DNA from: Roseimaritima ulvae
Lineage (GTDB): Bacteria > Planctomycetota > Planctomycetia > Pirellulales > Pirellulaceae
Length of the DNA stretch: 64,000 nucleotides
Direction: 5' to 3'
Assembly (NCBI RefSeq): GCF_008065135.1
Contig: NZ_CP042914.1
Span: 620,001 to 684,000 of the forward strand
In this document: positions 11,861 to 64,000 of the stretch, one piece after another
Layout of the letters: the number at the start of each line of letters is the position of its first letter
How positions within the stretch are numbered: position 1 is the stretch's first letter
Position numbers and translations under genes: made by a program
The notes under the pieces: model-generated
Told to the model about the DNA's origin: nothing
The model's database searches: none
The model's input: only the letters and a program-made list of their open reading frames with translations

Positions 11861-11920
11861 ACCGCTGCCATCGTTTCCGTCACCGTCCGCGTTCGTTTTT
11901 TCCTTTGTATCGACTGAGCC

Positions 11921-45052: not shown

Positions 45053-45227
45053 CGTGGAACGATCGCATGTTTGGTGTGGGGGTCCGCGCTGTGGATCCTC
45101 TCTTGATGGCGCTGTCGCTTGATCCAGTTCTGCTGGACGGCTGCAAGTAGGCGCCCTGGCCGCTTTGAGATTCAGGTCCTTGACGACTCACGTCTGTGGG
45201 TTCGCCGATTTCGCTAGGAAACGTTTT

Positions 45228-48149
45228 ATGGCTTCGTTGTCCACTCGCAGTGCGTCCTCGGCGGCGCCTGCCAAGAAGAAGAAATATGTTCGCGCGGTAG
45301 GTCCCAAATTGCGGCGGTTGCTGTACGCAATTTTTGTGTTGGTGGCGCTGCTGTTTGCCAATTCGGGCTATTTGTCCAGCGTCACCTTTCTGGAATGGTT
45401 GCGCGGTGAAACTTATCAAGACTATTACTACCAGTACATGTTCTTGGCGCATGTGGTCATGGGCTTGTTGCTGGTGGTCCCGTTGGTGGTGTTTGGATTT
45501 GTCCATATGTGGAACACCAAAGACCGCCGCAATCGCCGTGCGGTGCGGATCGGGTACGTGTTGTTTGGAGTCAGTTTGGCATTATTGATCAGCGGGATTC
45601 TGCTGGTTCGCATCGGTGGATTCGATCTGAAACAACCCTTGGCCCGCAGCACCGTGTATTGGTTGCACGTGGCCTGTCCATTGGCCGTGATTTGGCTGTA
45701 TTGGCTGCACCGTCTGGCGGGGCCCCGGATCAAATGGCGAATCGGATTTAGTTTTGGGGCAGTGACCGCGATGGCGATCGTGGCCATGGTGGCGATGCAG
45801 ATGCAAGACCCGCGGCGTTGGAATGCGGTGGGCCCGGATTCGGGCGTGCAGTACTTCGAACCCTCCTTGGCGCGGACCTCGTCGGGCAATTTTATTCCCG
45901 CCGAAACGCTGATGAATGACCAGTATTGCCTAAAGTGCCATGCGGACATTCACAAGGACTGGAGCGACAGCGTGCATCGCTTCAGTTCCTTCAACAACGC
46001 GCCCTACTTTGCCAGTGTCAGTGAAACCCGCGCGGTTTCGCTCAAACGCGACGGCAACGTCCAGGCTTCGCGATGGTGCGCGGGTTGCCACGATCCGGTG
46101 CCCTTCTTTTCCGGAGCGTTTGATGATCCCAATTTCGATATGCTGAAGCATGAAACCGCGTCGGCTGGGATCACCTGCACCGCTTGCCACGCGATCACCA
46201 ACGTCAACAGCGTGCGCGGTAATGCGGACTACACCATCGAAGAACCGCTGCACTATCCCTTCGCCTACAGCGACAACGCGGTCCTGCAGTGGGTTAACAA
46301 CCAGTTGGTCAAAGCCAAACCCTCGTTCCACAAACGCACGTTCTTAAAACCTTTCCATAAAACCGCCGAGTTCTGTTCGACTTGCCACAAGGTGCATCTG
46401 CCCGAGGCGTTGAACCACTACAAAGAGTTCCTCCGCGGCCAGAACCACTACGACCCCTACTTGTTCAGCGGCGTTTCGGGGCACGGGGCACGCAGTTTTT
46501 ATTACCCACCCAAAGCTGTCGACAATTGCAGTCAGTGTCACATGCCGTTGGTGCCCTCGAACGATTTTGGCGCCCAGATGTTTGCCGGGGCGAAGGAGTT
46601 GAGCGTTCACGACCACCTGTTTCCCTCGGCCAACACCGGCATCGCCTGGCTCCGCGATCGCGACGATATTATCAAGGCGCATCAGGACTATCTGAAGGAC
46701 GTAATGCGGGTCGACATCTTTGGGATCCGTGAGGGCGGCGAGATCGATGGCAAACTGATCGCTCCGCTGCGTCCCGAAGTGCCCACGCTCGAACCCGGTC
46801 AGCGGTATCTGTTGGAGACCGTAATTCGAACGCTGAAGCTGGGGCACCTGTTCTCTCAAGGAACCGTCGACTCCAACGAAATCTGGTTGGACGTTGTCGT
46901 CCGCAGCGGTGATCGCGTGATCGGTCGCAGCGGTTCGCTGGATCCGAAAAACGGCAACGAAGTGGATCCTTGGTCCCACTTCGTCAACGTGTTCATGCTG
47001 GACAAAGACGGCAATCGCATCGATCGACGCAATCCGGAAGACATTTTTACACCGCTGTATAACCACCAAATCCCACCCGGTGCGGGGCAGACGGTGCATT
47101 ATGAACTGCAGCTGCCCGACGATCTGACGGCGCCGGTGACCGTGGAGTTGAAACTGCAGTATCGCAAGTTCGACCAGCAGTACATGGACTTCGTCGCCCG
47201 CCGCAACCAAGAGTTCGGACGCACGATTCGCGGGCACGTGCCCGGCCAGTCGTACGTCAACCGGTTGCCGATCACCACCATGGCCGTGGACACCGTGACC
47301 TTCCCGGTCGCAGGCGTCGAGGCGAAGGTGGAGAACGAACCGCGAGACATTCCGACCTGGCAACGCTGGAACGACTACGGCATCGGGCTGTTGCTGAAAG
47401 GCAAAGCCGAATTGCGTCAAGCCGAAGCGGCGTTTGTCGAAGTCGAACGGTTGGATCGTTATGACGGGCCCTTAAATCTGGCTCGGGTTTTAAATACGGA
47501 AGGCCGCTTGGATGAAGCCGTCGAAGCGCTGCAGCGTGCCGAGGCGTATAGCGACACCGAAGGCTTTCCGCGTTGGACCTGGGCTTGGCTGTCCGGCGTG
47601 ATCAATTCCCAACAGGGCCGTTTGGAGGAAGCCGAGCAGAACCTCCGTAGCGTGCTGGAAGACCGCACCGAAGACATGCGGAATCGCGGGTTTGACTTCA
47701 GCTTGGATATCGAGGTCATCAATCTGTTGGGGCGGACACTGTTCGACTTGGGTAATGTCCGCAGCCGTCAACAACGCGAAGAGGAGAGCCGGCGGTATTA
47801 CAGCGACGCCGTGGCTCGCTTTGAACGGACGTTGGAGATCGATCCTGAAAACGTCACCGCGCACTACAATCTGCATCTGCTGTACGAAGCTCTTGGTGAA
47901 CAAGAGAAAGCAGCGGAGCATCAGGTATTGCATCTGCGGTACAAGCCCGACGACAACGCCAAAGGTCGCGCGATTCGCTTGGCCCGGCAAAAGTATCCAG
48001 CGGCCGACTACGCGGCGGAAGCCGTGGTCAAATACCAGCTTCAACGGAATCTGGATATCGGCCTTGAAACTCCTACTCCCGAACCGTCAGACGATGCACC
48101 GCAAACGCCGTCCGCCCCTCAAACGCAGCAAGGGCAAGATGATGAATAA
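45228..48149 (+). CDS. Pentahaem b/c-type cytochrome with TPR tail
   Basis: The 973-residue protein begins with a membrane block of about five helices (about residues 31-190). Its paired histidines (His75, His93, His147, His161) could ligate b haems. Five CxxCH motifs follow, at Cys234 (CLKCH), 284 (CAGCH), 317 (CTACH), 383 (CSTCH) and 434 (CSQCH). A beta-rich middle domain and a C-terminal TPR region (about residues 720-940, AFVEVERLDRYDGPLNLARVL, ARFERTLEIDPENVTAHYNLHLLYEALGE) complete it. It likely moves electrons across the inner membrane to a periplasmic partner. The ATG at 45228 is chosen from the TAGGA site nine bases upstream; the gene overlaps the next by 8 bases. Confidence 0.9.
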   Translation: MASLSTRSASSAAPAKKKKYVRAVGPKLRRLLYAIFVLVALLFANSGYLSSVTFLEWLRGETYQDYYYQYMFLAHVVMGLLLVVPLVVFGFVHMWNTKDRRNRRAVRIGYVLFGVSLALLISGILLVRIGGFDLKQPLARSTVYWLHVACPLAVIWLYWLHRLAGPRIKWRIGFSFGAVTAMAIVAMVAMQMQDPRRWNAVGPDSGVQYFEPSLARTSSGNFIPAETLMNDQYCLKCHADIHKDWSDSVHRFSSFNNAPYFASVSETRAVSLKRDGNVQASRWCAGCHDPVPFFSGAFDDPNFDMLKHETASAGITCTACHAITNVNSVRGNADYTIEEPLHYPFAYSDNAVLQWVNNQLVKAKPSFHKRTFLKPFHKTAEFCSTCHKVHLPEALNHYKEFLRGQNHYDPYLFSGVSGHGARSFYYPPKAVDNCSQCHMPLVPSNDFGAQMFAGAKELSVHDHLFPSANTGIAWLRDRDDIIKAHQDYLKDVMRVDIFGIREGGEIDGKLIAPLRPEVPTLEPGQRYLLETVIRTLKLGHLFSQGTVDSNEIWLDVVVRSGDRVIGRSGSLDPKNGNEVDPWSHFVNVFMLDKDGNRIDRRNPEDIFTPLYNHQIPPGAGQTVHYELQLPDDLTAPVTVELKLQYRKFDQQYMDFVARRNQEFGRTIRGHVPGQSYVNRLPITTMAVDTVTFPVAGVEAKVENEPRDIPTWQRWNDYGIGLLLKGKAELRQAEAAFVEVERLDRYDGPLNLARVLNTEGRLDEAVEALQRAEAYSDTEGFPRWTWAWLSGVINSQQGRLEEAEQNLRSVLEDRTEDMRNRGFDFSLDIEVINLLGRTLFDLGNVRSRQQREEESRRYYSDAVARFERTLEIDPENVTAHYNLHLLYEALGEQEKAAEHQVLHLRYKPDDNAKGRAIRLARQKYPAADYAAEAVVKYQLQRNLDIGLETPTPEPSDDAPQTPSAPQTQQGQDDE

Positions 48150-50001
48150 ACCGATTGTCAAAACCAACGTTGAAGAAATCGAAATCGAAGAACGCGATGA
48201 CGCGGTGATCGGCCGCGCGTTGCTGGCTTCGCTGGTGGTGTTTGTCGTGCTGGCTGCCACGGGCGGTGGGGTGGCTTATTGGCTCAGTCGGCCCGAGGCC
48301 GCGCCGCCGCTGCGGGAAACCGAACTGGCGCCAGTCGCCGTCCGGGCTCGGCCCACCGTCGAGGCCCCGGTGGTCAACTTTACCGACATCACCGACGCGG
48401 CGGGCATCGCGTTTGTTCACAATAACGGTGCTCGCGGCGACAAACTGCTTCCCGAAACGATGGGCGGTGGCTGCGCCTTCTTGGATTATGACAACGACGG
48501 CGACCAGGACATCCTGTTTGTCAATTCCAAAGATTGGCCCTGGGATGAAGCCAGTGACCGCTCGCAAACGGCGGCCCTGTATCGCAATCAGGACGGCCAG
48601 TTTGAAGACGTTACTAAAGGTTCGGGATTGGACGTTCCGCTGTATGGCATGGGCGCCGCCATCGGGGACTTTGATAACGATGGGCTGGTGGACGTGTTCC
48701 TGACCGCCGTGGGGGCAAACCGACTGTTCCGCAATCTCGGCGAAGGTCGGTTTGAGGACATCACCGAATCGGCGGGCGTCGCCGGCGAAGCGGATCGTTG
48801 GAGCACCAGTGCTGGCTGGTTTGACTACGACAACGATGGCGATCTAGATCTGTTTGTCTGCAACTATGTGTTGTGGAGTCGTGAGTTCGATTCGTCGCAA
48901 GGGTTTCAACTGGTCGGTGGCGGCCGGGCCTACGGACGGCCTCAAAACTTTGAGGGCACGTTCCCCTATCTGTACCGCAACGATGGCAAGGGACGTTTTA
49001 CGGATGTCTCCGAGGGCGCGGGGGTGCAAATTCGCAATGCCGCCACCGGCGTGCCGCTGGCCAAATCCTTGGGGCTGGCCTTCTGCGACTTCGACGGCAA
49101 CGGCGCGCTGGACGTCGTGCTGGCCAATGACACCGTGCAGAATCTGCTGCTGCAAAACGATGGCCAGGGGCGGTTCAGCGACGTGGGCACGTTGACCGGG
49201 ATCGCCTTCGATCAGACCGGTAACGCTCGCGGAGCGATGGGCGTCGATGTGGCCGCGCTGCGTGATCGCCAATCGCTGGGCGTGGCGATCGGAAACTTTT
49301 CTAACGAGATGACGGCCTTGTACGTGACCCGAGCCGGAGAGATGAATTTTTATGACGAAGCTGTGTCGACCGGGCTGGGACCGAGCACTCGGTTGCTGCT
49401 GACCTTTGGCGTCGTCTATCTGGACTACGATCTGGACGGACGCAGCGACTTGTTGTGCGCCAATGGGCATCTGGAAGAAGATATCAATCGTGTCCAACCC
49501 AGCCAGCACTACGAACAACCCCCTCAACTGTTCTGGAATGCGGGGCCCCAGCAAGGCACCGAATTCCTGCCGGTCGATGAGCAACAGGTGGGGGCCGATT
49601 TGTTAGAGCCGATGGTGGGCCGTGGGGCGACCTATGCCGACATCGACAACGACGGCGACTTGGACATCCTGCTGACCGCTTCGGGACGCCGCCCGCGGCT
49701 GCTGCGAAACGACCAGCAGCTGCAGCATCATTGGTTGCGATTGCAACTGGTGGGCAACGGCGAGTCCTGCAACCGAGACGCCATCGGCAGCTGGGTGGAA
49801 GTCACCGCCGGCGGTCAGGTGCAGCGAAAGCAGGTCATGCCGACACGCAGCTATTTGTCGCAAGTCGAGTTGCCGCTGACCTTTGGTCTCGACGATGCCG
49901 ACGCCGTCGAAAAGGTCACGGTCACGTGGAGCGACGGCAGCCAGCAGGAGCTGCAGGATTTGCAGGTCGATCAGACGCATGTCGTGCGACAGGCTCCCTA
50001 A
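48142..50001 (+). CDS. Membrane-anchored FG-GAP/ASPIC-UnbV protein (CRTAC1-like)
   Basis: A 619-residue protein with one N-terminal helix (about residues 29-52, LLASLVVFVVLAATGGGVAYWL). Six or more FG-GAP/VCBS blades follow with calcium-type loops (DYDNDGDQDI, DFDNDGLVDV, DYDNDGDLDL, DFDGNGALDV, DYDLDGRSDL, DIDNDGDLDI), then a C-terminal ASPIC/UnbV domain (GSWVEVTAGGQ, MPTRSYLSQ, VTWSDGSQQEL). Such proteins form periplasmic beta-propellers, often beside multihaem cytochromes with TPRs in planctomycetes. The start is inside the cytochrome gene, with AGGG upstream; an ATG three bases earlier is equally possible. The two are translationally coupled. Confidence 0.92.
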   Translation: MNKPIVKTNVEEIEIEERDDAVIGRALLASLVVFVVLAATGGGVAYWLSRPEAAPPLRETELAPVAVRARPTVEAPVVNFTDITDAAGIAFVHNNGARGDKLLPETMGGGCAFLDYDNDGDQDILFVNSKDWPWDEASDRSQTAALYRNQDGQFEDVTKGSGLDVPLYGMGAAIGDFDNDGLVDVFLTAVGANRLFRNLGEGRFEDITESAGVAGEADRWSTSAGWFDYDNDGDLDLFVCNYVLWSREFDSSQGFQLVGGGRAYGRPQNFEGTFPYLYRNDGKGRFTDVSEGAGVQIRNAATGVPLAKSLGLAFCDFDGNGALDVVLANDTVQNLLLQNDGQGRFSDVGTLTGIAFDQTGNARGAMGVDVAALRDRQSLGVAIGNFSNEMTALYVTRAGEMNFYDEAVSTGLGPSTRLLLTFGVVYLDYDLDGRSDLLCANGHLEEDINRVQPSQHYEQPPQLFWNAGPQQGTEFLPVDEQQVGADLLEPMVGRGATYADIDNDGDLDILLTASGRRPRLLRNDQQLQHHWLRLQLVGNGESCNRDAIGSWVEVTAGGQVQRKQVMPTRSYLSQVELPLTFGLDDADAVEKVTVTWSDGSQQELQDLQVDQTHVVRQAP

Positions 50002-50004
50002 ATG

Positions 50005-50170
50005 CCGTAGCTACGCTCGCCAGAGCGTGGGGAAGGTAGCTACGCTCGCCAGAGCGTGGGTGTTGCGCGAGACCCACCGTCTGGCGACGGTAGCTACGGT
50101 GTTTCGTAGTGGCGCTGTTCCAATTGGCTGACATGCTAGAATCTCTGTCAGGCTGGAAAGCCTGACGTAC
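50005..50170. repeat. GTAGCTAC repeats and a hairpin just upstream of the peptidase start
   Basis: Copies of the GTAGCTACGCTCGCCAGAGC repeat lie at 50005-50031 and 50035-50060, with an opposite-type copy at 50073-50100. A perfect hairpin GTCAGGC-TGGAAA-GCCTGAC (50147-50166) with GTAC tail ends one base before the GTG start of the next gene. Confidence 0.92.
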
Positions 50171-51394
50171 GTGGCGCCTGTGGAATTGATTCTTGACGTG
50201 ACCCCCCTGCCCTACCATCAACAGATTCGCGACTACCTGCAGCGCCAGCAGCGTGAGGTGTGGGAGTGGTATGCGTCGAATCGCGTTCAGGACAAACAAG
50301 CCGACGCAGTGCGATTCGAATTGCTCAAATCCACTTACCGCGTCGATCGTGACTCCCAACCTCAGTTGTACGAACAGGCCGATCAGGTGGCCCGCGAGTT
50401 GGGGTTGGACGTGTCGGTGACGATCTACCAGACGCAGAATCCCCAGGGGCTCAACGCCTCGCTGGCTTACCTGCCCAATGAAGCGCACATCGTTTTTCAT
50501 GGTGCGGTTGCCGACACGTTGAACCACCAGGAAATCCGCGCGCTGCTGGGCCATGAATTGAGCCATCTGCTGCTGTGGCAGGGATGGGACGGCGAATACC
50601 TGATCGTCGATCAGGTGCTGAGTGCCTTGACCTGCGATCCCAATGCTGACACGCCGCACCTGGAATCCGCTCGACTGTTTCAGTTGTACAGCGAGATCTT
50701 CTGCGACCGCGGGGCCCTGGCGGTGGTTCAGGATGCCAAAACCGTGGTGGCGATGCTGGTCAAAGTGATGACCGGCGTGGCGGACGTGAACGCGGAAAGT
50801 TATCTGCGGCAAGCCGAAGAGATCTTGCAGGATCCCAACGTGCGAGCCGACGACTACACCCATCCCGAAGCCTACATCCGGGCTTCGGCGATTCAGTTAT
50901 GGGCTGACAAGGACCCGCAGGCCGACGACAAAATCAGCCGTATGATCGAGGGCCCGCTCCGCCTGCAGCAACTCGATCTGCTTAGCCAACAACGCGTCGC
51001 TCGGCTCACTCGGCAATTGATCGACCTGTTACTGGCAGCCCCCTGGATGCGGACCGATGCGGTGTTGGCCCACGCCCGCCTGTTTTACCATGACTACGAC
51101 CCACCCTCCGCGGTCGTGGGCGATGGCGAACTGGTGGAGGCGTTTGCCGACGTCGATGATTCGCTCCGCGATTACGCCTGTTACCTGCTGTTGGACTTTG
51201 TTACGTCGGATCGCGACCTGGAAGAATTCCCCTTGGCGGCGGCGTTGACGCACAGCGAACGCTTGGGATTCAAACCACGGTTCACCGACATCGCTCGCAA
51301 AGAATTGCGTCTGCGCAAAAAACAGATCGAGAAAATCGATCAGGATAAAACCGACCTGCTTGCCAAAGCCGCCGCGGCGATCGCCACAACATGA
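50171..51394 (+). CDS. Soluble M48-like zinc metallopeptidase
   Basis: A 407-residue protein with an M48-type zinc site: HExxH in LLGHELSHLLL (His128, Glu129, His132) and the third ligand in LYSEIFCDRGAL (Glu175, with Asp179), as in the M48 ExxxD pattern. Unlike HtpX or Ste24 members, there is no transmembrane helix and no signal peptide, so it should act in the cytosol. A long helical C-terminal region (about 230-400) may bind a substrate or partner. The start is GTG at 50171, with GTG 50180 as alternative. The stop overlaps the helicase ATG (ATGA), implying that the two are made together. It may cleave the partner protein or a target; this is inference. Confidence 0.85.
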   Translation: MAPVELILDVTPLPYHQQIRDYLQRQQREVWEWYASNRVQDKQADAVRFELLKSTYRVDRDSQPQLYEQADQVARELGLDVSVTIYQTQNPQGLNASLAYLPNEAHIVFHGAVADTLNHQEIRALLGHELSHLLLWQGWDGEYLIVDQVLSALTCDPNADTPHLESARLFQLYSEIFCDRGALAVVQDAKTVVAMLVKVMTGVADVNAESYLRQAEEILQDPNVRADDYTHPEAYIRASAIQLWADKDPQADDKISRMIEGPLRLQQLDLLSQQRVARLTRQLIDLLLAAPWMRTDAVLAHARLFYHDYDPPSAVVGDGELVEAFADVDDSLRDYACYLLLDFVTSDRDLEEFPLAAALTHSERLGFKPRFTDIARKELRLRKKQIEKIDQDKTDLLAKAAAAIATT

Positions 51395-54300
51395 CTTCGT
51401 TCCACACGTTTTTGCAACAGCGAATCGCCGCCGGTGGCTTTTCTACCGAAGACACGTTGAGCAGTTTGCTGCCCTTGATTCGCGAGGTGCTAGATGCCCA
51501 CGCGGCGGGGTTTGTGGCGCCGCTAGAAGGCCTCGACGCGCTACACGTCGACGGCGTGCGGTTGTGGTTTGCCGAAAAGGATCGCCGCAGTCCCCTGCAA
51601 GCCGCCACGCGGTTACGGAGCATCGAAGCGGCCAACCGAGCCAATGTCGAAATCCTGAACGAACAGTATCGCACGGCCGACGTGGGCGAAGGCACGCAGC
51701 AGATCATCGCGGCCGAACTGGGCAAACGCGACCAAGAAATCCAGCGTCCTGTCTATCTGCCGGGCTACGTCAGTTGGGAACATCAAATCGGGCACCATGA
51801 TCCCCTGACGGACGTGTTCAGTCTGGGCATGCTGCTGGCAAGCCTTGCTTGTGGACTGGACTTTACCGATCCCGCGCAGCTGGAGACGTTCGTCAGCAAA
51901 CGCCGCAACCTGTTTGAGCTGAACGCCAGCCTGCATCCGGTGTTGGCCCGAGCGATTGTGCAGATGACGGAATTGGATCGTCATCGTCGCGTCCAGCAAT
52001 TGTCGGCGCTGCTGCACAGTTTGGAACACTATCGTGACCAGGACGTGGATTTTGAATTTGATCTGGCCCGCATCCCCGGTTTCCGGCAACAGGATTCACG
52101 CAGTAAACAAAGCGTGGTGCTGTCGAAATTGCGTGAGCGGTTGTTCGAAATTTCACGCCGCAATCGCTTGCTGCATTTTCGGCCCACCATGCAGACCGCT
52201 AATCTGACGCAAGCTTCGGTGCCGCTGTCGTTCGACATTAAGAATATTCGTCCCAATCAAATTTTGATCTGGGATGACGCTTTCAAAAAAACGTTGATCG
52301 CCGGCAAAGCTATCTCGTTAAACAAGTACTTGAACTTTGCCGAAGCCCTGTACCTGCCCAGTCTGTTGGACCGGATCATCGCCGAGGCCCGTAAGGATCA
52401 GGCGGAGTACGGATTCGCTCAGCTGCGACTGGTGGTCTGCTTTTTGAACTGGGCCAATCTGAAAGAAAAACCCGTCCAGCAGTTCGCTTCGCCATTGGTC
52501 CTGGTGCCGGTTCAGCTGAAGAAGAAAAAGGGCGTGCGTGACACCTATACGCTGCAGGCGCTGGAAAGCGTGGCGGAGGTGAATCCGGTGATTCGGCATC
52601 AGTTCAAGCAACTGTACGCCATCGATTTGCCGGAAACATTAGATTTGACCAAGACCACGCTGGACGCCTTCTTCGATTACCTGGCCCAAAAGATCGAAGC
52701 CAGCGAGCCGGCCATCACGTTGAACAAAATCGACCGCCCGCGAATCGCTTTGATTCACGACAAAGCCAAACGCAAACTCGATCAGTATCGTCGTCGCGCG
52801 CGGGTCTCGGGACGTGGCGTGCGGACGTTTATGGATGTGGACTACAGCTACGATCCGGCGAACTACCATCCGCTGGGGATCAAACTGTTCTCCAGCAAAA
52901 TTCAACCGCCCAGCACGTCGCTACAAGCGATTTTGGAGCAACAGCCGCGGCCGCGCAGCTACGTCGCTCCCGCCGACGAACCGACGCCTACGGTCGAAAA
53001 GAGCAAAACCTTTTTTCAAATGCAGGAGGGCGGCGACGACAATCCGTATTCCTGGGATTTCGATCTGTGCAATGTCACGCTGGCGAATTTTAAGTATCGC
53101 AAGATGTCGTTGGTCCGCGATTACGAAGCGTTGCTGCAATCGCCCTGTTCGAATCCCGCCTTCGAGGCTACTTTTTCGCTGACACCTCGCGACGATAAAC
53201 GCGAGTTGTTGGAATCGCCGCCGCTGGATCAACGCTATGACGTGGTTCCCTGCGACCCCACGCAGGCGATCGCCATCGAAGAGGCACGGGCCGAGAGCAG
53301 CTATATCATTCAAGGGCCGCCGGGTACGGGCAAGTCGCAGACGATTACCAACCTGATTGCCGACTACGTGGCCCGTGGCAAACGCGTGTTGTTTGTGTGT
53401 GAAAAGCGAGCGGCGATCGACGTCGTCTACGCCCGCCTGCGACAGTGCGGACTGGGGTCGTTGTGTTGCTTGATCCATGATTCACAGGCCGACAAAAAAG
53501 CGTTTGTGATGGATCTGAAACAGACCTACGAAAACCTGTTGGAGCAGGCCCCGACCCACGGCGAGCGCCGCAGCGGGCGACGAAAACGTCTGTTGAATCT
53601 GATTGATAAAGAACTACAGCCGCTGGAACGTTTCGATGCGGCGATGCAATCCACTCCGTCGCACGTCGGGCTGCCTGTTCGCGACTTGATCTCTCGCTGT
53701 TTGACAATGTCGACCGAGCCCCCGCCGTTGGATGATTTGCAGAAGGAACGGCTGCCCGGCTACGCCGATTGGTGGCAGCATCGTGAAGCCATCGAACGGT
53801 ACGTCGATGCTTTGGATGAAGCGATACCCGATCGCGTCCTGGCCCACCATCCGCTCAGCCGTTTGTCTTGCCAGTTAATCGACGCACCACGGCCGCTGGA
53901 ACAGCTGACCACTCATGGAACGGCCGCGCAAACCGAACTGCAGACGGCTTGGGCGGCGCTAACCGAAACGCTGGACCGCTGTGGCGAGCCGCTGGAGCGG
54001 TGGAACAGCTTGCAGGCCGCCGGGGAACTGACCGCATACGCTCGCTGTGTGCTGCCCTTGGTCGAAATCCAGCAGCTCGATTTATTAGATTCCGACAGCG
54101 ATACCTCCAAACAATTCGATCAAGCGCATCGGCTGTGGGAAGAACAGCAACAGATCGTCCGTGACGCAGCCAAAATGAATCAAGCTTGGGTACAGAAACT
54201 GACGCCGGCCGATACGACGGTGGCACTTGAGCAGGCTCGCGTCTTCGAAACCAAAACGATGCCCTGGCTGAGTCCCGCGTGGTGGCGGCTGCGCAATATC

Positions 54301-56577
54301 TTGCGGCACGCGTATCCTTTCGCCAGCGACGCGGTCCGCCGCAGTTGGGTTCGTGTGTTGACGGATCTGCAGCATGAGTATCAACAGATCGACGCCATGG
54401 AGCAGTTTGCTCGAGAGACCGCGCGGCGGTTTCACATCGATACGGAAGTGTCTCAATTTCATGGGCAACTGCAGGATATCCGGCGTCAGGTTGCCGTGCT
54501 TGATCCGGGCTTGCTGCAGTTCCATCGTCAACTGCTGGCATCGCCCAATGCCGAGGCGGTGCTGCGAGCGCTTGCTGATATCGGTCCCGCACTGCAGCGA
54601 TTGACCAGCCATCTAGAACCGATCTGCGACGATTATCAGGAACTGTCGCTGGTCGAATTGGACAGCTTGTTGGAACAGATGCTGGAGTCCCGCGACACGT
54701 TGCCGGACGTGATCCGTTGTCTGCAAGAGTTGCGGGATGTGCCGGACGAGCTACGGCGGACGTTGATTTACTGTCCGCTGACGCCGGACCAGGTCGAAGC
54801 CGCGATCGCCGATCACAGTTTGGCACGTGTCTTCCAGGCCGACCGTTCGCTGCAGCGATTCAGCGCCGGTACTCGCAACCAACATGTCGAGCGAATTGAA
54901 AACTACTACCAGGATTGGCTGGACAGCAATGCCGAGGCGATCTGTGACACAGTCAAACGCCGTTTTCTGGAGAACGTGCGGATCTCCAGTTTGCCGGCCG
55001 CTCAGTTAAAGCCCGAGGAAAAACAGTTCAAGAAACGCTACAACCGAGGCCGCCGCGAATTGGAGCACGAATTTGGCAAGTCGATGCGTTACAAATCGAT
55101 CCGCGACCTGGTCACCGACGAATCGGGCGAAGTGGTCAAGGATCTAAAACCCGTCTGGCTGATGAGTCCCCTGAGTGTGTCGGACACGCTGCCGCTGGAT
55201 ACCCAGCAAGTGGACGTGGTGATCTTTGACGAAGCCAGCCAGATCACACTGGAAGAAGCCATCCCCTCGCTGTTTCGGGCCCAGCAGACGATTGTTGTCG
55301 GCGATCAGATGCAATTGCCGCCGACCGACTTCTTCGCCGTCAAGCGCAGCGAAGAAGATGAGGAAGAGACAACGTTTGAAGAAGACGGCGAAATTATCGA
55401 GTACGATCTGAGCAGCAACAGCTTTCTAAACCATGCGGCCACCAATTTGCCCAGCACCATGCTGGGCTGGCACTATCGCAGTCGCAGCGAGTCCCTGATC
55501 AGCTTTTCCAACTGGGCGTTCTACGACGGTCGCTTGTTAACCGTGCCCGAGGAACGTCTGCCTGAACCCGGACGTCGACCGCTGGTGGCCCGCATTGCCA
55601 CCGATGCGGTCGAGCATGTCGACGAGGTGTTTCAGCGTCCGATCAGTTTTCACTTGATGGAACACGGACGGTATGAAAAACGCCAAAACCGAGCCGAAGC
55701 GGAATACATTGCCGAACTGGTTCGCGAAGTACTGAATCGACGCAGCGGCGTCAGTATCGGCGTGATCGCGTTTTCCGAAGCGCAGCAGAGCGAAATCGAA
55801 GCGGCGCTGCAGCGCTTGGCGAAAGACGACGCGGCCTTTCGTGAATTGCTGGACGCCGAATTGGAACGCGATGAAGACAATCAGTTTGTCGGCCTGTTGG
55901 TCAAAAACCTAGAAAATATTCAGGGCGACGAACGCGACGTGATCATCCTGAGCGTCTGTTATGGTCCCGATGCACGCGGCAAGATGCTGATGAACTTCGG
56001 GCCGATCAATCGCAGCGGTGGCGAGAAACGATTGAATGTGGCTTTTTCACGAGCCAAGCATCACATGGTGTTGGTCAGCAGTATCCGGCACGATCGGATT
56101 ACCAACGATTACAACGACGGCGCGAACTGTTTGAAGAACTATTTGCATTATGCCGAAGCGGTATCGACGGGCGACCGCGATACGGCCAACCGGATTCTGC
56201 ACGGCATGTCGCCCTGGCATCACGCGGCGGGCACCGAAAACCGTCAAGCCATCGAGGGGGTTGCTCAGCAGCTTGCAGCGGCGCTGTCGGCACAGGGCTT
56301 CATTGTCGACCATCACGTCGGACAGTCTCATTTCCGCTGTGACCTAGGTGTCCGTCGTCCGGATGATACCATTTATCGGCTGGGGATCATGATGGACAGT
56401 GACGCCTACTACGAGCAACCCGATATTCTCGAGCGAGACATGATGCGGCCGAAGTTGTTGCGAGCCTTTGGTTGGCGGCTAACGCACGTATTGGCGAAAG
56501 ATTGGCACGCCGATCGAGAGGCGGTGCTGAAGCGGTTGGAAGGGATGTTGGAAGCGTCGAAGAAGCATGGGCAGTAG
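51391..56577 (+). CDS. Pseudokinase / DUF4011 / SF1 helicase / MTES_1575-type nuclease-like fusion
   Basis: A 1728-residue cytosolic protein. Residues about 15-215 resemble a kinase C-lobe (YLPGYVSWEHQIGHHDPLTDVFSLGMLLA) without HRD or DFG, so a pseudokinase. LRERLFEISRRNRLLHFR (247-264) is the DUF4011 signature. The Upf1-like SF1 helicase core has Walker A GPPGTGKS (642-649), DEASQ (1280-1284), GDQMQLPP (1304-1311), HYRSRSESLISF, and an NVAFSRAKH motif near 1550. The C-terminal 90 residues match the MTES_1575-like restriction-endonuclease fold (FRCDLGVRRPDD, DIOxERD-like ILERDMMRPKLLRAFGWR), but the usual acidic GIECD is GIMMD here (1665-1669). Related COG1112 helicases occur in defence loci such as Mokosh. 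The TAG stop is the first triplet of a dispersed repeat. Confidence 0.88.
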   Translation: MTSFHTFLQQRIAAGGFSTEDTLSSLLPLIREVLDAHAAGFVAPLEGLDALHVDGVRLWFAEKDRRSPLQAATRLRSIEAANRANVEILNEQYRTADVGEGTQQIIAAELGKRDQEIQRPVYLPGYVSWEHQIGHHDPLTDVFSLGMLLASLACGLDFTDPAQLETFVSKRRNLFELNASLHPVLARAIVQMTELDRHRRVQQLSALLHSLEHYRDQDVDFEFDLARIPGFRQQDSRSKQSVVLSKLRERLFEISRRNRLLHFRPTMQTANLTQASVPLSFDIKNIRPNQILIWDDAFKKTLIAGKAISLNKYLNFAEALYLPSLLDRIIAEARKDQAEYGFAQLRLVVCFLNWANLKEKPVQQFASPLVLVPVQLKKKKGVRDTYTLQALESVAEVNPVIRHQFKQLYAIDLPETLDLTKTTLDAFFDYLAQKIEASEPAITLNKIDRPRIALIHDKAKRKLDQYRRRARVSGRGVRTFMDVDYSYDPANYHPLGIKLFSSKIQPPSTSLQAILEQQPRPRSYVAPADEPTPTVEKSKTFFQMQEGGDDNPYSWDFDLCNVTLANFKYRKMSLVRDYEALLQSPCSNPAFEATFSLTPRDDKRELLESPPLDQRYDVVPCDPTQAIAIEEARAESSYIIQGPPGTGKSQTITNLIADYVARGKRVLFVCEKRAAIDVVYARLRQCGLGSLCCLIHDSQADKKAFVMDLKQTYENLLEQAPTHGERRSGRRKRLLNLIDKELQPLERFDAAMQSTPSHVGLPVRDLISRCLTMSTEPPPLDDLQKERLPGYADWWQHREAIERYVDALDEAIPDRVLAHHPLSRLSCQLIDAPRPLEQLTTHGTAAQTELQTAWAALTETLDRCGEPLERWNSLQAAGELTAYARCVLPLVEIQQLDLLDSDSDTSKQFDQAHRLWEEQQQIVRDAAKMNQAWVQKLTPADTTVALEQARVFETKTMPWLSPAWWRLRNILRHAYPFASDAVRRSWVRVLTDLQHEYQQIDAMEQFARETARRFHIDTEVSQFHGQLQDIRRQVAVLDPGLLQFHRQLLASPNAEAVLRALADIGPALQRLTSHLEPICDDYQELSLVELDSLLEQMLESRDTLPDVIRCLQELRDVPDELRRTLIYCPLTPDQVEAAIADHSLARVFQADRSLQRFSAGTRNQHVERIENYYQDWLDSNAEAICDTVKRRFLENVRISSLPAAQLKPEEKQFKKRYNRGRRELEHEFGKSMRYKSIRDLVTDESGEVVKDLKPVWLMSPLSVSDTLPLDTQQVDVVIFDEASQITLEEAIPSLFRAQQTIVVGDQMQLPPTDFFAVKRSEEDEEETTFEEDGEIIEYDLSSNSFLNHAATNLPSTMLGWHYRSRSESLISFSNWAFYDGRLLTVPEERLPEPGRRPLVARIATDAVEHVDEVFQRPISFHLMEHGRYEKRQNRAEAEYIAELVREVLNRRSGVSIGVIAFSEAQQSEIEAALQRLAKDDAAFRELLDAELERDEDNQFVGLLVKNLENIQGDERDVIILSVCYGPDARGKMLMNFGPINRSGGEKRLNVAFSRAKHHMVLVSSIRHDRITNDYNDGANCLKNYLHYAEAVSTGDRDTANRILHGMSPWHHAAGTENRQAIEGVAQQLAAALSAQGFIVDHHVGQSHFRCDLGVRRPDDTIYRLGIMMDSDAYYEQPDILERDMMRPKLLRAFGWRLTHVLAKDWHADREAVLKRLEGMLEASKKHGQ

Positions 56578-56805
56578 CATGGGCCCCTGGCCCGTGTACA
56601 CAAGAAAGGGGGGCGGAAAGGACCAAAGGGACCAAAGGGACTACCAACATCCTTTTCGTCCTTTAGGTCCCTTTCGTCCTTCTCTTTTCTCATCACACGG
56701 GCCGGGGACCCATGCTACTATCACACGGGCCGGGGACCCATGCTACTATCACACGGGCCGGGGACTCATGCTACTTGTACACGGGCCGGGGACCCAGGGC
56801 TGTAA
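56575..56805. repeat. GGGCCGGGGACCCATGCTAC repeats, tandem and inverted
   Basis: An inverted unit (56575-56604, TAGCATGGGCCCCTGGCCCG) starts on the helicase stop codon. A GGGACCAAAGGGAC-type repeat (56608-56690) follows. Then come four direct units of exactly 28 bp beginning at 56694, 56722, 56750 and 56778. The units are near identical and contiguous, with no unique spacers, so this is not a CRISPR array. Confidence 0.92.
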
Positions 56806-56941
56806 GGGTGTCGTCAAACGTCGCTTTTCCCGGCTTTTGCAGGAAAGTCAAAAATCAAATTCTCAGATGCATGGTTGTGTTTTACGAGAAAAGGCCGTTT
56901 TCATTGTGTTTCTTACCCTTACAGCCCTGGGCCGGGGACCC
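56783..56941. mobile_element. MITE-like element with 14-17-bp terminal inverted repeats
   Basis: Terminal inverted repeats CCCAGGGCTGTAAGGGT (56793-56809) and ACCCTTACAGCCCTGGG (56915-56931) bound an AT-richer core with no ORF. CCGGGGA (56786-56792 and 56932-56938) flanks it directly; with shorter terminal repeats, the direct repeat can be read as 13 bp. Removing the element and one duplicate restores an intact dispersed-repeat unit. This is the pattern left by a transposase-mobilised non-autonomous element of 133-139 bp. Confidence 0.8.
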
Positions 56942-56975
56942 ATGCTACGGGGCGGCCCATGCTACGGGGCGGTGA
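56929..56975. repeat. Terminal GGGCCGGGGACCCATGCTAC units at the HEAT-gene stop
   Basis: One complete unit (56929-56949) and a shortened one (GGCGGCCCATGCTACGG, 56952-56968) follow the MITE. The CTA of the last unit is, on the minus strand, the TAG stop of the HEAT-like gene. Confidence 0.88.
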
Positions 56976-59900
56976 TCGGTGCTGGGGCATCGGGCGTGTG
57001 TTCGCTTACCTGCATTCGCTTCTTCGTTTTGCGATCGATGTTGCCCAGGGCTAGTGCTGCTTTAATATCGCTCTTGGCGGTATCGAGCTTACGGACGCAG
57101 GTTAAGCACAGCATCGCGCGCTGAGCCAACAGCGATCCACTGTCCGGGTAACGCTCGATTCGCTCGGTGATAAAGTTCATCTCAGATGCAAACATCTGAT
57201 CGGCTAACTCATGTCCGCCCGCCGCATCGACTTGGAAGATGAACGGGTGCAGCCACTGTGGTTGACTGGAATTGGCCCACCGCAATTCTTTCCAGAGCCG
57301 TTCCAGAGTTTCGAAATCGCCACGAGCCAACGCGTCTTGCATGGCAGCCTGCTGGGCCATCTGCAAGCCGTGCAGAACTTGCACTGGAGTGCCGCGCGAG
57401 AGCGTCGGGCGACACATCCAAATCAGCTGTTCACGGCGAAGGTCGGCCACTTCGGCCACGTCATCGGTTGCATCGGCCAGTTGGGTCGTCGCCCACAGGA
57501 AATCGTCGCTATCGGGCAAAGTCGTGCGCCGAACCAGCCGCCACTGTTCCATTGCCGCTTCGGCTTCACCGATGACACGCCATGATGCGGCCAATTGCAA
57601 GCGATCGATAGGTAAGTAAAGCAGCGATTGGGCCAGTTGCGCGGCGTCTTCGGCTTGCTGGCGTTGTGGCTCGTCGGTTGCTGCGCGAAGCCGGGCTTGT
57701 GCCTGCAGCACGATCAGGTCGCTGCGTTCGGGGGCCAGCCAAGTTGCATCGTTGAGGACTTGAACACACGCAGCGTAATCTCCCGCAGCGAAACGGCTGA
57801 CGGCGTGCCAGCGAAGCGTTTCCACGTTTTGCGTCTGCTTCAGCCAATACGCACGCAGTTCATCGTCCATGGGGAACGTCTGTCCGGCTCGCCCCCAGCG
57901 TTGCACCACCACGTCCAGCAATTTGTTTTGCGTGGTCGACCCGGACAGCCGCGCGGTCCGCAGTTGACCAGCAACATGCTGTGCATATGCCTGGACCGCT
58001 TCGTGATCCAAGGGGGAGGTTTCGACGGTCACGAACTGCAGCATGCGTTCGAGGAGCGATTCGCCGAAATACGGGTCCTGGACGAACAACCGAATGCGAT
58101 CGTAATCCAAGGGAACGAGGTATTTGTGGATCGCATGTGGTGGTTTGCGGCCGTCACGACGTAATTGGCGAGCGGCAATCCATTTGCTGAGCGTGCCACG
58201 CAGCAGTTCGGTTCCCAGCGAGCTCGACTTTTCGATCTGTGGATGGTCGGCAAACCACTTGCGGCATGCCGCTATATTGCCCCGCAGCAGCCACTGGGCC
58301 AACAGTTCTTGCTGGAAGGCTTTGACGGCGGGGGCGGCTTGATCAGGTTGTTGATCCGCGAACTTGGCCAATGCGTTGTCGATTTCATCGCCACGGTCGG
58401 GGTTGCCCAGCAGACGTTCGGTATCGGCGATGTTTAACAGGAACGCGATGCCGCGAATCCGTTGTGAATTATCGATCGGCGTCGAACGCGTCGCGTCGTC
58501 GTAGTATTCCTCCGCGGTGCGTTCGCCCCAACGGACATGGCGGAGGGCGTCGTGGTAGTAGCCGCGGGTGCGGATCAGGTCGAAGGCGATCCAGTTTTGG
58601 TGACGCAGGTGTTTGGTGCCCTGGGCGGGTTGGCCTAGCATCGTCAACAGATCCGAGACATAGCGACCAAAGGCGTCGTCTTGGGGCGTGCGCAAGCCCT
58701 CTCGTGCGAGCCCGAGTTCTTCCAGTGTCTCCATGGCCGCGGTAACGGCGGCCCACTGATCTTCGGGTTTTCCGCCGGTCTGTCCCCGATGCCACGCCAA
58801 CATTCCGGCGATGGCCGCGCGTTGGGCTTGTTCGTAAGCCGGGTCGGTGGGAGCGGACGATTTGCTGAAGGCAGACAGATCGGTTTGCAGATCGGGCACC
58901 GGCAACTCGGTGGCGGCCTGCCAGTCATGATGTTGAATCGTGAGGATGGTGGCCAGCGACGGCATCTCGGCTTTTAAGGCGGCCTGGACCGCTGGTTCCT
59001 GGCGGCCGGCCGCGTGCAGCAAACGCACGATCCGCCGTTGCTCCTCCTCGGTGCGTTGATCATCGGGCTTGTCACGCAGCGACTGCAGCTCGGCGTCGAG
59101 CAATTGGTTGGCAAGCAGAAAGGAGATCCAGCGACCCGTGGCGTCTTCACTTGGATGTTCGACCGGCCCGCGATCACGGAGGATGTTGGCCACGGCCTGG
59201 ATTTCGCCGCGGCGGATTTGAAGCGACAGGGGCGTGGCGGGAATCGGGCGTTTCGTTAACGGACTGGCGCTGCCGTGCCTCAGCGCCATCATGCGGTTGG
59301 CCAGTTTGGCGTAACGTTCGCCCAGGTCCGCGCGATAGAAGCACCCGGCGATGGAGTTTTCAGTCAGGAAACGGCAATTCTTTAACGCTTCGTCCGGTAG
59401 CGATTCGAGCCACTGCGTAAAGGCGGTAATGGTTTCCGGGGAGGAGAGTGCTTGTCTGTCTGCCCGCTCGGACAAAAATTGCGACAGACCGAATATCAAC
59501 GACGAGCTATGAGATGCCTGACTAGCCTGCCACAGAAGCTCCAGTTCGCCGCGGGCCAGGACCGCGGTGAGGGCAAGGCGGTCCTGCCACATCGAGCGGA
59601 GGACGTAGGGTTTCCGGCGGCGGTCGAGCCGCTCCAAAATAGGCGTCAGGCCGCGGCGGGCGATGAACGCGGCCATCACGGCGCTGTTGCGGGGCAAGGA
59701 GTAACTGCCCATCCGTGTGTTCAGTTTGTTGTCGAACGCTTCGAGGCGGGCGGCCTGTTGGGCTTCGCTTAACGAAGCAAACACGCGAGGCTGATCAAAG
59801 AAGCGAGTTTCATCGTGTTTTTCCGCCCAGCTCACCAGGTCGTCCAGGTGTCCGGCCGCAAGCAATCGATTGCAGGCCACTGTCGAACGCGCCAAATCTC

Positions 59901-62900
59901 GCATGGCCGAATTGCTGGCGGGGTTAGCCTCGCGGATGACTTTATACAGTTCGTCATATTCTTCGTCCGACCAAAATACCGCCGCGGAGGGAGCGGTCAG
60001 CAAGGCAGCCAAGGCCTCATCGCGAGTGGCGCGGCGTGGTTCGCTCAGCAGCACGCCCGCCAGCGAAGACAGTTCGCCGCGGCGCACCCAATCGCCGCAC
60101 CATCGTGCGTTTTGCAGCATCGCGGCCAGCAGACGATACACCGCATCACGATTGCCGTCTTGCCAGAACCTGATTCGCATGTCCGTGGCAGAATGGTTTT
60201 GCAGGTACGCCGCGGCGACCGCATCCTGACGCAACAGGTGTTGCAGGGCCGACAGGTCGATGGTCGCTACATCGCGCCAACACAGTTCCAGTAGTTCGTC
60301 GGCATAGCCCGAACGCGCCAACGTGTAGCCCATCTGACCTCGTAACAATGTGGTATAGCTGCTATTGCCGGTGGCTGGATAGGAGATCGCCAAATCGCGA
60401 TAGATTTGCATCATCCGATCCAGCTGGTCGTGGCTTTCGACAAGCTTACGGACAGCACTACCACCCAGCAACGAGGACCACTTGGAGGCCGTCATGCGGT
60501 CCATGTCATGGCGAGCAAATTCCAGCACCCTGTCCAGCGAAACGGCTTCCAACCAAGCCACCGATTGGCTGCTGCTCGTCAGCGATGTGAGCACTGTGGC
60601 GCGATCTTTGGGAGGCAGGTCTTCACGCAATCGAGGCAGGACCTGTTGCGCATGACCCTGATTGACCAACCAGTTCAGGAAGGCTGCATTACCCAGCAGT
60701 CTTCGGTAGCCATCGGTGCGCGTGGGACGGTTATCGAGGGGAAACTGACGGATGCGCTGCCACAACGTGTCTCCCAATACGTCTACCGTTTCGTCTTGCA
60801 CGCCGCCGGAAAGAAAACGCAGCATGCTGGAGGGCAGTTGTTTGGTAGGAATCGATTTTAAAAAGCGATTCAATTCGGACACTTGCTGCTCGTCAACGTA
60901 GTGTTCGATTGCATGCGGGTGAGACATCACGATGGTAAGCATGCTCCAGCGTTGATCCGTGTCGCGAACCTGCTGGATCTTTTTCAGCAAGTGCGGCAGC
61001 TCACCGTCTTCGAGCAGTTGTTTTAAACATGCCGATGAATTGACCACGGCATTCAACAGGAGCTGGCGGATTTCCACGGAACGCTGTGGGTTGCGATAGT
61101 CCAGCAGACGCTCGGTCTGTTTAAGTCGCACCAGTTCCGTCGGCACACGGCTCTGCCGCAGCAGTTGTTCCCACATCTTCGCCCTGGCGTCAGCGGATTC
61201 AACCGCATCCACGCGGGCCACCACCTGGTCAAAACCGCGCTCGGTGATCAAGGAATCGATCAGGTAGCGATTGCTCACCAGCCCGGACAGCAACGCCAGA
61301 CGCGTCGGTTGCGGATGCTCGCCGTCCATCCGTTCGAATATCCCCTTGCGGAGCTGCATCAGCACCGGGGGCTCGGCGGAACGGATGTTACGGATACAGG
61401 CCGCGACCAGATTGAACTGCGGGGCTTCGTCCAGTTTGATCGCGATGTCCAGCAAACGGAAAAATAACGCCACACTGGGCGCGTCCGACGGCGCCGGAAA
61501 GACGCGGCGTTGCAAACACTCCCGCAACGCAGCCGTGCGTTCTCGAAGTGGCAACTGTTGCAGTTCGGACAGGAACCATTCGAGGTGCGGTGGTTCGGCC
61601 AGCAGTGAGCTGGCTTCGGGCACTCGCGACACGGCCAGCAATTGCGGCAAAGTCAACGAGGCATCGATCTGGATGATTTCTTCGATGATCTGTTTCCGCG
61701 TTGCCACGTTGTCCTCGGTCACTCGGTTGAGCTGGCCGAGTCGGAGCAGGCAGTAGGCCAGTTGGCCGGCAGGCTTGGCGGACTGTTTGTAGCGTTGTTG
61801 CAAGGCGGTCAGCCGGGCCCTCATCGCCGGTAAGACCTGGGGGTTGCGATTGCCCTGCATCTTGGCGTAATTGCCGACCTGCTTTAACGCCGCCAATTTG
61901 TCATCATCGGACGAGAAGCGATCGAACCAGTCCAGCATCTGTTGCTCGGAAACTTTGGTCATCAGAATGGGCAGCACCCGCAGGTCGGTGAACAACCGCT
62001 TCAGCAACGGTTGCGGGTCATCCAGATAAGCCATCAACCGCGGGGTCGATTCTGCTTCCAGCATGTTTTCCAGCACGGACCAGTGAGCGACAAAAGCCTT
62101 CGCCAAGCGTGTTCGTTGAGCTTTCGATTCGGCTCGATCGATAAACTGAAAAATCGCCTCGACACCGTCGCTCTGCAGCAGCTTGTTCGCCGCGACGGGC
62201 GAACTGGCAATTCGCGTCCAGCCAATCAAACGTGCTTCGGCAGGCAGGGTGTCCAGGAAATCCAACAGCACCTGCAGCTGATCTTGCTGCACGACCGCAG
62301 CGATCATGGCGGGCGTAAATAGATTCCACTGCAGATCTTCGTCGATCGCTTGGCCGGGTGGCGCCAGGGCTCGCAGCAAGGAAGCCAGGTGGGCTTGTTG
62401 CAAAAAGTGCTGCTGCCCGGTGGGGTGTTCCAACGCGATGGACGCCAATTGCGAACGACGCGGCAGGCTGGGTTCCAAGCGGATGGCCAGCAGCAGGGTG
62501 TCGAATTCTTCGGCTTTGAGCAGCGCGTGCAGGCCGCGCTGTTGACGCGTCAGGTCGCCATCGCGGATGTCACGCACGGCGGTCACCACGTCGGTTGCGG
62601 TATCCGGGAATAAACCGTATCGAAAATCTTTGTGAATCAGTTGAGCCCGGCGACGGACTTCGTTGTCCGGGTGGGCGGTGGCGGCCTGAGCGATCTTTTC
62701 AGCCGCCGGTGGTCCCAACGCGCGCAGCTGACGCGATGCGGCGTTGCGAGCACTAAAACGAGGCGACCCCAAGGCTTCGATCAGCCGATCGATATCGGCG
62801 GCGGCGGGTTCGGCGGTGGCAGCGGATTCGGGAGGTTGGGCCAGTACCGATGGCGAGAGCGTGGTCAGGCCGCCGGCCAGCCAAAACAGGGCCAGCCACA

Positions 62901-63123: not shown

Positions 63124-64000
63124 CTAGATGGCGGAGGAGCTTTTGATGACGGGGATCAGCAGGGCCATCACCACGATCAACACCAGCGTGGCCATGATCA
63201 GCAGCATCACCGGTTCCAGCAGCCGGACGAATAGGTCCAGGCGGCGGAAGGTGCGTTTTTCCAGGGTGTCGGCGATCGTCGGCAGGACGCTCTCCAGCGA
63301 GTTGCTTTCTTCGGCGACGCTGATCATTTCCACCACGGTGTTGGGGAAATAACCGCTGCTGCGAAGCGGTGAAGCCAAGCTTTCTCCCGAACGAATGTTC
63401 TCGCTGGCTTCGCCGATCGAACGGCTCAGCAAACGGTTACCGGTGGCGGCTCGACTGATTTCCAGCGACTTCAAAATCGGCACGCCGTTGCCCAGCAGGG
63501 TGCCCAGTACGCGGCAAAAGCGAGCTACGGCCAGGTTCATCAAAATGTCGCCGAGCACCGGGATTCTTAATTTGATCCGGTCGGCGGCAAATTTACCGGC
63601 TTCGCTCTGCAGTTTAAAACGGATGAAGAACCCCAGGGCGATCAAGGCTAACAAGATGTAGATCCCGTAGGACTGCAACATCATGCTGAACGATAGCAGA
63701 CCGTCGGTCAGGGCCGGCATTTCGCCTTTGTCTCGCAGCCGCGCGAACAGCGGATCAAACTTGGGCACAAAGAACACGATCAGGACCGTGATCACGATCG
63801 AGCCGACGCCGAACAGGAACACCGGATAGGCCATCGCGCTGACGGTTTTGCCCTTGAGGTCTTCTTGCAGTTCGGTGAACGTGCTGACCCGGTCCAAGGC
63901 GTCTTCCAGGAACCCGCCTTCGGTTCCCGCGCGGACCATGTTGATGCCCATCTCGCTGAACACGCGGGGGTACCGGGCCATGGCGTTGCCCAGCGGTTCG
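63124..64000 (-). CDS. Type II secretion/type IV pilus inner-membrane protein GspF/PilC, N-terminus beyond window
   Basis: The reading frame is open through the right edge, so the first 100-130 residues are missing. The visible 292 or so residues carry the T2SSF pattern twice: VFSEMGINMVRAGTEGGFLEDALDRV at the end of the first domain, and a second domain with AVARFCRVLGTLLGNGVPILKSLEI, IRSGESLASPLRSSGYFPNTVVEMISVAEESNSLESVL. Three membrane helices are evident (VSAMAYPVFLFGVGSIVITVLIVFFVP, LQSYGIYILLALIALGFFIRF, LLEPVMLLIMATLVLIVVMALLIPVI). It is the inner-membrane platform of the secretion or pilus machine; which one cannot be told. Confidence 0.95.
   Translation of the reverse strand, partial: EPLGNAMARYPRVFSEMGINMVRAGTEGGFLEDALDRVSTFTELQEDLKGKTVSAMAYPVFLFGVGSIVITVLIVFFVPKFDPLFARLRDKGEMPALTDGLLSFSMMLQSYGIYILLALIALGFFIRFKLQSEAGKFAADRIKLRIPVLGDILMNLAVARFCRVLGTLLGNGVPILKSLEISRAATGNRLLSRSIGEASENIRSGESLASPLRSSGYFPNTVVEMISVAEESNSLESVLPTIADTLEKRTFRRLDLFVRLLEPVMLLIMATLVLIVVMALLIPVIKSSSAI

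Follow-up and report, generated by a model that had tools for sequence, protein, structure and literature searches.

Why should a gene for a metallopeptidase run into a gene for a very large helicase, and what would the two proteins do together? The question is raised by a window of 64,000 nucleotides from Roseimaritima ulvae (bases 620001-684000 of its 8.21 Mb single-contig genome, G000), in which an M48-like metallopeptidase gene is followed by that of a superfamily 1 (SF1) helicase of the DUF4011/COG1112 type; the name COG1112 comes from an initial, sequence-only reading of the window. We find that the pair is a real and widespread two-gene system, apparently undescribed, whose function we infer. 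Tentatively, we favour the view that it is a horizontally spread accessory system of two proteins, with the helicase as sensor and motor and the M48 peptidase as effector, and protection against phage or plasmids as its most likely predicted purpose.

The two genes are found in the same genomes. The search of the window's family covered 199 genomes, an even sample of a larger set; 74 gave some helicase match at 1e-30, and 25 held the helicase clade that has the N-terminal domain or a remnant of it, an assignment made by reading the rows (in G079 a contig start truncates the helicase, and that of G090 is decayed). The peptidase search returned 30 of the 199 genomes, 25 of them strongly (E at most 7.4e-43) and 5 weakly (E 1e-9 or worse). 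The genomes with a strong peptidase match and those with a helicase of this clade are the same 25 (Fisher p = 2.5e-32, a value that ignores relatedness). In 23 of them both genes adjoin on one contig, with 1.8 kb between them in G140 and 0.9 kb in G042, and in G035 and G079 the peptidase and the helicase lie on different contigs. Elsewhere in its own genome, the window's helicase has two weak matches to its core (E 3.8e-6 and 9.9e-5).

A wide scan over one genome per species (84,980 species) gave 52 loci, 51 of them with helicase sequence downstream. The loci belong to Planctomycetota, to Lentisphaerae and other Verrucomicrobia, to Bacteroidota (mostly Chitinophagaceae and Pedobacter) and to one gammaproteobacterial metagenome-assembled genome (MAG); a few MAG loci bear doubtful labels, for example Polyangia L116, whose contig looks chimeric, and Nealsonbacteria L143 and L148. 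After nine duplicates were dropped, the helicase followed the peptidase in 65 of 67 distinct loci from several phyla. Counted over distinct loci, the 4-base overlap recurs in 26 of 40 non-Bacteroidota pairs and an 8-base overlap occurs in 4 of the 40, while Bacteroidota pairs have gaps of 2-117 bases in 24 of 25 and of 2.1 kb in the remaining one. Inspection by eye of the DNA that separates the genes in L075, L098, L109, L112 and L141 revealed no common gene; in L112, a single MAG, it contains a 195-aa open reading frame (ORF; 11349-11936) that looks nucleotidyltransferase-like by eye. The trees of the two proteins are congruent (Mantel r = 0.844, with 0 of 2000 permutations as high; 48 loci), as would be expected for co-inheritance, and shared host ancestry, which was not removed, would add to the agreement. 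Because both genes are kept together while peptidase identity falls to 27%, we consider the pair more than a chance neighbourhood. The sequence-only reading had proposed that a peptidase ORF overlaps a 1728-residue helicase ORF by ATGA and that the two form one unit; the ORF calls (Table 1), the identical set of genomes, the order of the genes and the conserved overlap all agree with it, and the two are not usually apart.

The distribution of this unit is patchy. The pair is present in 25 (13%) of the 199 family genomes and absent from 174, the peptidase occurs in 10 of 195 genomes (5%) of the family of Niastella populi at 1e-20, and in the window's phylum 12 of 392 genomes match at 1e-10, 8 of them strongly. 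In the window and in its congener G083 the pair follows a cytochrome c554/TPR gene and an ASPIC/UnbV FG-GAP gene (45165-50001), which form a conserved block in relatives; the upstream cytochrome was found in 18 of 30 genomes, the window's own counted. This common site is what speaks for an ordinary planctomycete housekeeping pair, which the sequence-only reading had named as its main alternative. However, all 11 stretches fetched from other relatives (L200-L210, with about 3 kb of DNA beyond the block in the shortest cases) have the block without the pair; 8 of these 11 genomes have no peptidase match anywhere, and G783, G787 and G789 lie outside the peptidase search. The pair is thus an insertion at this site, common to two congeners, and, being patchy and missing beside the same flanking genes, it is accessory rather than housekeeping. 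Against a housekeeping role stand also its absence from the congener G109 (an assembly that is 82% complete), its presence in other phyla, and the congener G028, whose version does not group as sister to that of the window in the tree and is without the neighbour genes found in the window. Found neither in every family genome nor at one syntenic position, the pair has a distribution that rules out this alternative, the least credible of those that we considered. The sequences give signs of horizontal spread: Lentisphaerae L109 pairs with Phycisphaerales L111 in the tree, the gammaproteobacterial MAG L115 groups with a planctomycete, and the Phycisphaerae MAG L108 falls among Pirellulaceae.

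Within the two proteins, the sequence-only reading had recognised a cytosolic M48-like peptidase with HExxH/ExxxD, a kinase C-lobe lacking HRD and DFG, a DUF4011 signature, a full set of Upf1-like SF1 helicase motifs and a C-terminal MTES_1575-like restriction endonuclease (REase); all of these held, except that the last appears to be the fold without a working nuclease. Pfam matches on the helicase comprise DUF4011 (E 2.6e-13), AAA_11 and AAA_12 (E 1.9e-20 and 3e-19). In 48 homologues, 54 of 69 positions in SF1 motifs I, Ia, II, IV, V and VI are at least 90% conserved (I 10/10, Ia 9/10, II 9/11, IV 6/8, V 12/18, VI 8/12), and motif III is present with 5 of 9 positions invariant, which completes the series I to VI of an Upf1-like SF1 helicase.

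The active site of the REase fold tells a different story from that of the motor. Its Glu column (residue 1667), the Glu of which we take to be catalytic from the REase fold, is occupied in 48 paired-clade helicases by Leu (46), Met (1, the window) and Phe (1), and the earlier Asp (1651) is present in 24 of the 48. In contrast, all 24 unpaired DUF4011 helicases compared from the same family have the Glu (ECDG in 22, ECDS in 2), these being the loci fetched, a subset of the family's unpaired DUF4011 helicases; they come from 22 genomes without a strong peptidase and from G028 and G051, where the peptidase adjoins another helicase. The window's fold therefore lacks the Glu of ECDG, one of the carboxylates of an active MTES_1575 enzyme, and is predicted to be catalytically dead. 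Judged from the alignments, the lost nuclease site is a mark of the clade with the peptidase, and the Glu is also missing from a helicase of this clade in a genome without the peptidase (G044). Recognition of the fold by Pfam would suit a system in which mobile DNA falls to a pseudokinase sensor, a helicase and a working nuclease, with the peptidase as accessory, as the sequence-only reading had it, but the active-site comparison leads us to reject an active nuclease and makes that version very improbable.

At the N-terminus of the helicase, the AlphaFold 2 (AF2) model of residues 1-260 (predicted local distance difference test, pLDDT, 87) was used for a Foldseek search, in which all 50 matches listed were protein kinases (prob 1.00, TM 0.39-0.49; best E 3.9e-3, none at or below 0.001). 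A profile of the domain against PDB sequences likewise matched protein kinases in 49 of 49 cases (best E 0.009), and Pfam Pkinase gives weak matches to 10 of 43 members (best 0.0067), the window's own domain not among them. Each of these values is modest; taken together they agree on a kinase. Six residues are invariant in 43 aligned N-terminal domains, and we read H37 as the His before the catalytic loop, E130 as the Glu of APE, D141 and G146 as the Asp and Gly of alpha-F, and R197 and R200 as late Arg residues of the C-lobe. The catalytic-loop stretch is HxxxxVAP, without HRD, among the alignment rows listed; four HRD-like strings occur in the 43 domains 27-70 residues beyond this stretch, and no DFG-like string is found in any of them. 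Of the features of an active protein kinase (N-lobe, HRD and DFG), none is retained by this C-lobe.

The peptidase scores 30.6 bits against Pfam M48 (E 3.7e-7; gathering score 20.3), with HELSH and the Glu third ligand E175 as in that family. The highest mean hydropathy of any 19-residue window is 1.49 and no membrane segment is predicted, which points to a cytosolic enzyme. The best Foldseek match of its AF2 model (pLDDT 90.7) is BepA (E 9.6e-3, prob 0.97), followed by BlaR1 (E 0.37, prob 0.99), with selecase and HtpX lower. Stand-alone M48 peptidases of several planctomycetes (L158-L163) are relatives over the M48 core (hhalign prob 99.1, E 2e-18), and 4 of 4 tested carry TerB by Pfam; in contrast, TerB matches none of the paired peptidases. 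We suspect that the C-terminal helical domain of the modelled peptidase is related to the TerB part of these stand-alone proteins; the paired peptidases have no Pfam TerB match, and the hhalign alignment to the M48-TerB relatives spans query columns 41-284 only. None of 10 stretches around weak stand-alone M48 matches held a helicase segment.

HExxH is kept in 63 of the 66 readable distinct peptidase loci (the 67 minus L148, which is cut by a contig end), implying selection on catalysis. The three that lack it (L070, L071 and L076) fall at two places of the helicase tree, so the motif was probably lost twice; in this tree L070 and L076 are represented by their duplicates L144 and L145, and it was read for its branching order alone. 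These loci retain the 4-base overlap, the peptidase ORF and helicase motifs I, II and VI, and C178, D179 and R180 are invariant in 23 peptidase homologues, the three among them. These three loci suggest a further, non-catalytic function of the peptidase, such as a stable subunit would be expected to have. One could go further and see in the peptidase a regulator or structural partner that cleaves or scaffolds the helicase, which alone would do the work, for example by dismantling transcripts or replication intermediates. The intact loci without HExxH and their invariant residues fit such a partner; the selection on catalysis just described does not, and no candidate effector but the peptidase is left intact once the nuclease and kinase sites are gone. 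We hold this account to be unlikely.

The main rival explanation draws on the comparison with SPRTN/Wss1 and a helicase: the pair would be an accessory stress-survival module for the repair, or the quality control, of nucleic acid blocked by protein, the helicase stripping or unfolding the protein and the peptidase digesting it. At E up to 0.1, SprT-like Pfam families match 31 of 42 peptidases (best 2.2e-6), but M48 matches more of them and better (40 of 42, best 1.4e-10), and the third ligand is a Glu as in M48, not the His that we take to be typical of SprT. The loss of the nuclease site would suit repair, as would the WGR domain, a binder of DNA breaks and DNA ends, as in PARPs. The Blastopirellula marina helicase (L113 11215-16758) carries such a domain at its C-terminus (Pfam E 5.9e-18), and a profile search with this end found homologous ends in 25 of the 48 paired-clade helicases, mainly in Bacteroidota; the same search found none in the window's helicase. 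On the other side, the patchy distribution is unusual for repair genes and the versions without HExxH could digest nothing. Because the trigger may be phage DNA, RNA or blocked host DNA, we keep the repair account as a rival, though an unlikely one.

Table 1. Features of the gene pair, in positions of the 64,000-nucleotide window
Feature	Position	Strand	Basis
M48-like metallopeptidase, 407 aa	50171..51394	+	ORF, GTG start; Pfam M48; AF2 model
Zn-binding HExxH (HELSH), residues 128-132	50552..50566	+	In 63/66 readable distinct loci
Third Zn ligand region EIFCDR (E175, D179)	50693..50710	+	Sequence alignment of homologues
Alpha-helical C-terminal domain, residues ~205-405	50783..51385	+	Secondary structure of AF2 model
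ATGA stop/start overlap	51391..51394	+	Common to peptidase ORF end and helicase ORF start
DUF4011/COG1112-type SF1 helicase, 1728 aa	51391..56577	+	ORF, ATG start; Pfam, PADLOC and NCBIfam matches
Pseudokinase (protein-kinase C-lobe without N-lobe, HRD or DFG), residues 1 to ~235	51391..52095	+	Alignment; AF2 and Foldseek; profile search
DUF4011, residues 250-402	52138..52596	+	Pfam
Helicase motif I GPPGTGKSQT, residues 642-651	53314..53343	+	All 10 positions at least 98% conserved in 48 homologues
Helicase motif II VVIFDEASQIT, residues 1276-1286	55216..55248	+	9/11 positions at least 90% conserved
Helicase motifs IV-VI, residues 1358-1559	55462..56067	+	26/38 motif positions at least 90% conserved
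MTES_1575 REase fold, predicted catalytically dead, residues 1626-1717	56266..56541	+	Pfam E 5.7e-18; Glu column

A defence role is made plausible by the kinship that the sequence of the helicase has with named or candidate anti-phage helicases. Its body and C-terminal end resemble the candidate PDC-S37 of PADLOC (E 1.1e-213; best stretch, model 217-1344 of 1550 on residues 554-1726) and ProA of NCBIfam (NF058533, E 5.2e-207; best stretch from residue 562), the latter at 690.6 bits against a curated cut-off of 1500. Hhe is matched from residues 1141 and 1134 in the best stretches (E 1.6e-90 in PADLOC and 2.1e-132 with NF042953, 443.2 bits against a curated cut-off of 2000), and further matching stretches exist for all three. 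The window's helicase differs from these systems in its lost nuclease Glu, and no description of a peptidase partner for any of them was found in the open-licence literature. Mokosh ties a Ser/Thr kinase to a helicase, and its helicase core is similar (PADLOC MkoA E 1.5e-39, MkoC E 2.5e-26; best stretch 1270-1593); in the window, by contrast, only a dead C-lobe represents the kinase and a peptidase takes the partner's place, and the combination of a full-length helicase match with an active Ser/Thr kinase that marks Mokosh is absent. Hachiman HamAB has a sensor helicase that gates a partner effector (PMC12278908). The Hachiman effector is a nuclease, whereas that of the window would be a peptidase, and the likeness is one of working only, with no homology claimed. 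The accessible part of another study describes an island, RptR-RMS-DarTG-M48, that protects against phage and contains an M48 metallopeptidase gene; this gene adjoins a type I restriction-modification system and DarTG, and that part mentions no DUF4011 helicase (PMC12255303). In P. aeruginosa, a DUF4011 gene borders a defence hotspot as a core flank (PMC10250203). The pair itself is described nowhere in the literature searched (open-licence papers only), including the available portions of PMC10250203, PMC12255303, PMC12278908, PMC7159879, PMC8195603, PMC11291487 and PMC12839542.

To look for defence genes around the pairs, we scanned 120 of the 381 ORFs lying no more than 6 kb from a pair and, as a control, 120 of 217 from 20 random stretches (L164-L183) of the same or related pair-holding genomes. 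Length was the sole criterion for calling genes, so some of the ORFs in each set are spurious. At 1e-8 the neighbours matched 91 PADLOC families and the controls 37, in both cases overlapping models of few genes. Among the 25 families listed for each set, the neighbours gave GajB, a reverse-transcriptase-associated helicase, NERD-UvrD, PD-T4-6, dGTPase and MADS, and the controls HmaB/HmaC, CARF-RtcR, DinG, MADS and methylase; the HmaB/HmaC matches in the random stretches were strong, and such hits thus turn up without the pair nearby. No integrase was found among the 25 Pfam families listed of 96 for neighbours and 104 for controls.

Clustering of 868 neighbouring ORFs, with the first 45 clusters examined, gave a PAS histidine kinase (9 loci), a response regulator (8) and a sulfatase (7) as the most frequent clusters listed besides the pair. 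These frequent clusters are all common Pfam families, so no third operon partner was found among the clusters examined. The gene after the pair in the window encodes 1996 aa (56962-62952, minus strand) and has no match at 1e-40 in 29 relatives; in G083 the next window gene found beyond the helicase is the homologue of 63124-63981. Unmatched in relatives and skipped in G083, it looks like a separate insertion. Two repeats border the pair. Upstream (50007-50060) lies a REP-like 24-base repeat with palindromic ends, with 384 copies in G000 at up to 2 mismatches (0 for a reversed-pattern control), and directly downstream of the helicase (56573-56967) a 23-base repeat runs in 28-base tandem steps, with 524 copies at up to 2 mismatches (control 0).

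Since neither the nuclease nor the kinase site survives, what is predicted to be conserved is translocation driven by ATP and, for the majority of loci, proteolysis. The simplest model that these sequences suggest is a sensor helicase that gates a peptidase. The Upf1-like SF1 helicase would be sensor and motor for aberrant nucleic acid and the cytosolic M48 peptidase the effector. The pseudokinase C-lobe would dock and restrain the peptidase, the dead REase fold, together with WGR where present, may bind DNA or DNA ends, and translocation on foreign or damaged nucleic acid would free the peptidase to act on a protein of phage or host. In its logic such a system would follow Hachiman, with proteolysis replacing DNA cutting. 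As a possible but doubtful refinement, the proteins would form an immune complex in which the nuclease-less helicase reads aberrant nucleic acid, the kinase C-lobe docks and the metallopeptidase is switched on. Such a complex, of a new kind for bacteria, would represent nucleic-acid-gated proteolysis without CRISPR guides, the effector role having passed from nuclease to protease in evolution.

Several observations weigh against a mobile, protease-based defence system. The docking and the order of activation are guesses. G035 has a peptidase of the paired type (L082 9072-10277) with no helicase beside it, and G044 has a paired-clade helicase (L077 9455-13861) that lacks the pseudokinase, with no peptidase in the genome, possibly through secondary loss of both. 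Three of the 66 readable peptidases lack HExxH and are still paired, so catalysis is not always needed. The Mantel test leaves shared host ancestry in, and mis-binning of MAGs could account for some of the taxon mixing. The 91 neighbour families against 37 in controls cannot be counted as enrichment because they are overlapping models of few genes, PADLOC had no hit among ten further window genes, and plasmid (two queries), phage and IMG/VR viral-contig collections gave no match.

DUF4011 helicases are named in defence catalogues, and we know of no account of how they act. The paired clade separates their parts: the motor is kept, the nuclease and kinase sites are lost and a peptidase is gained. 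It thereby lets one test whether DUF4011 helicases are sensors that gate a swappable effector, proteolysis included.

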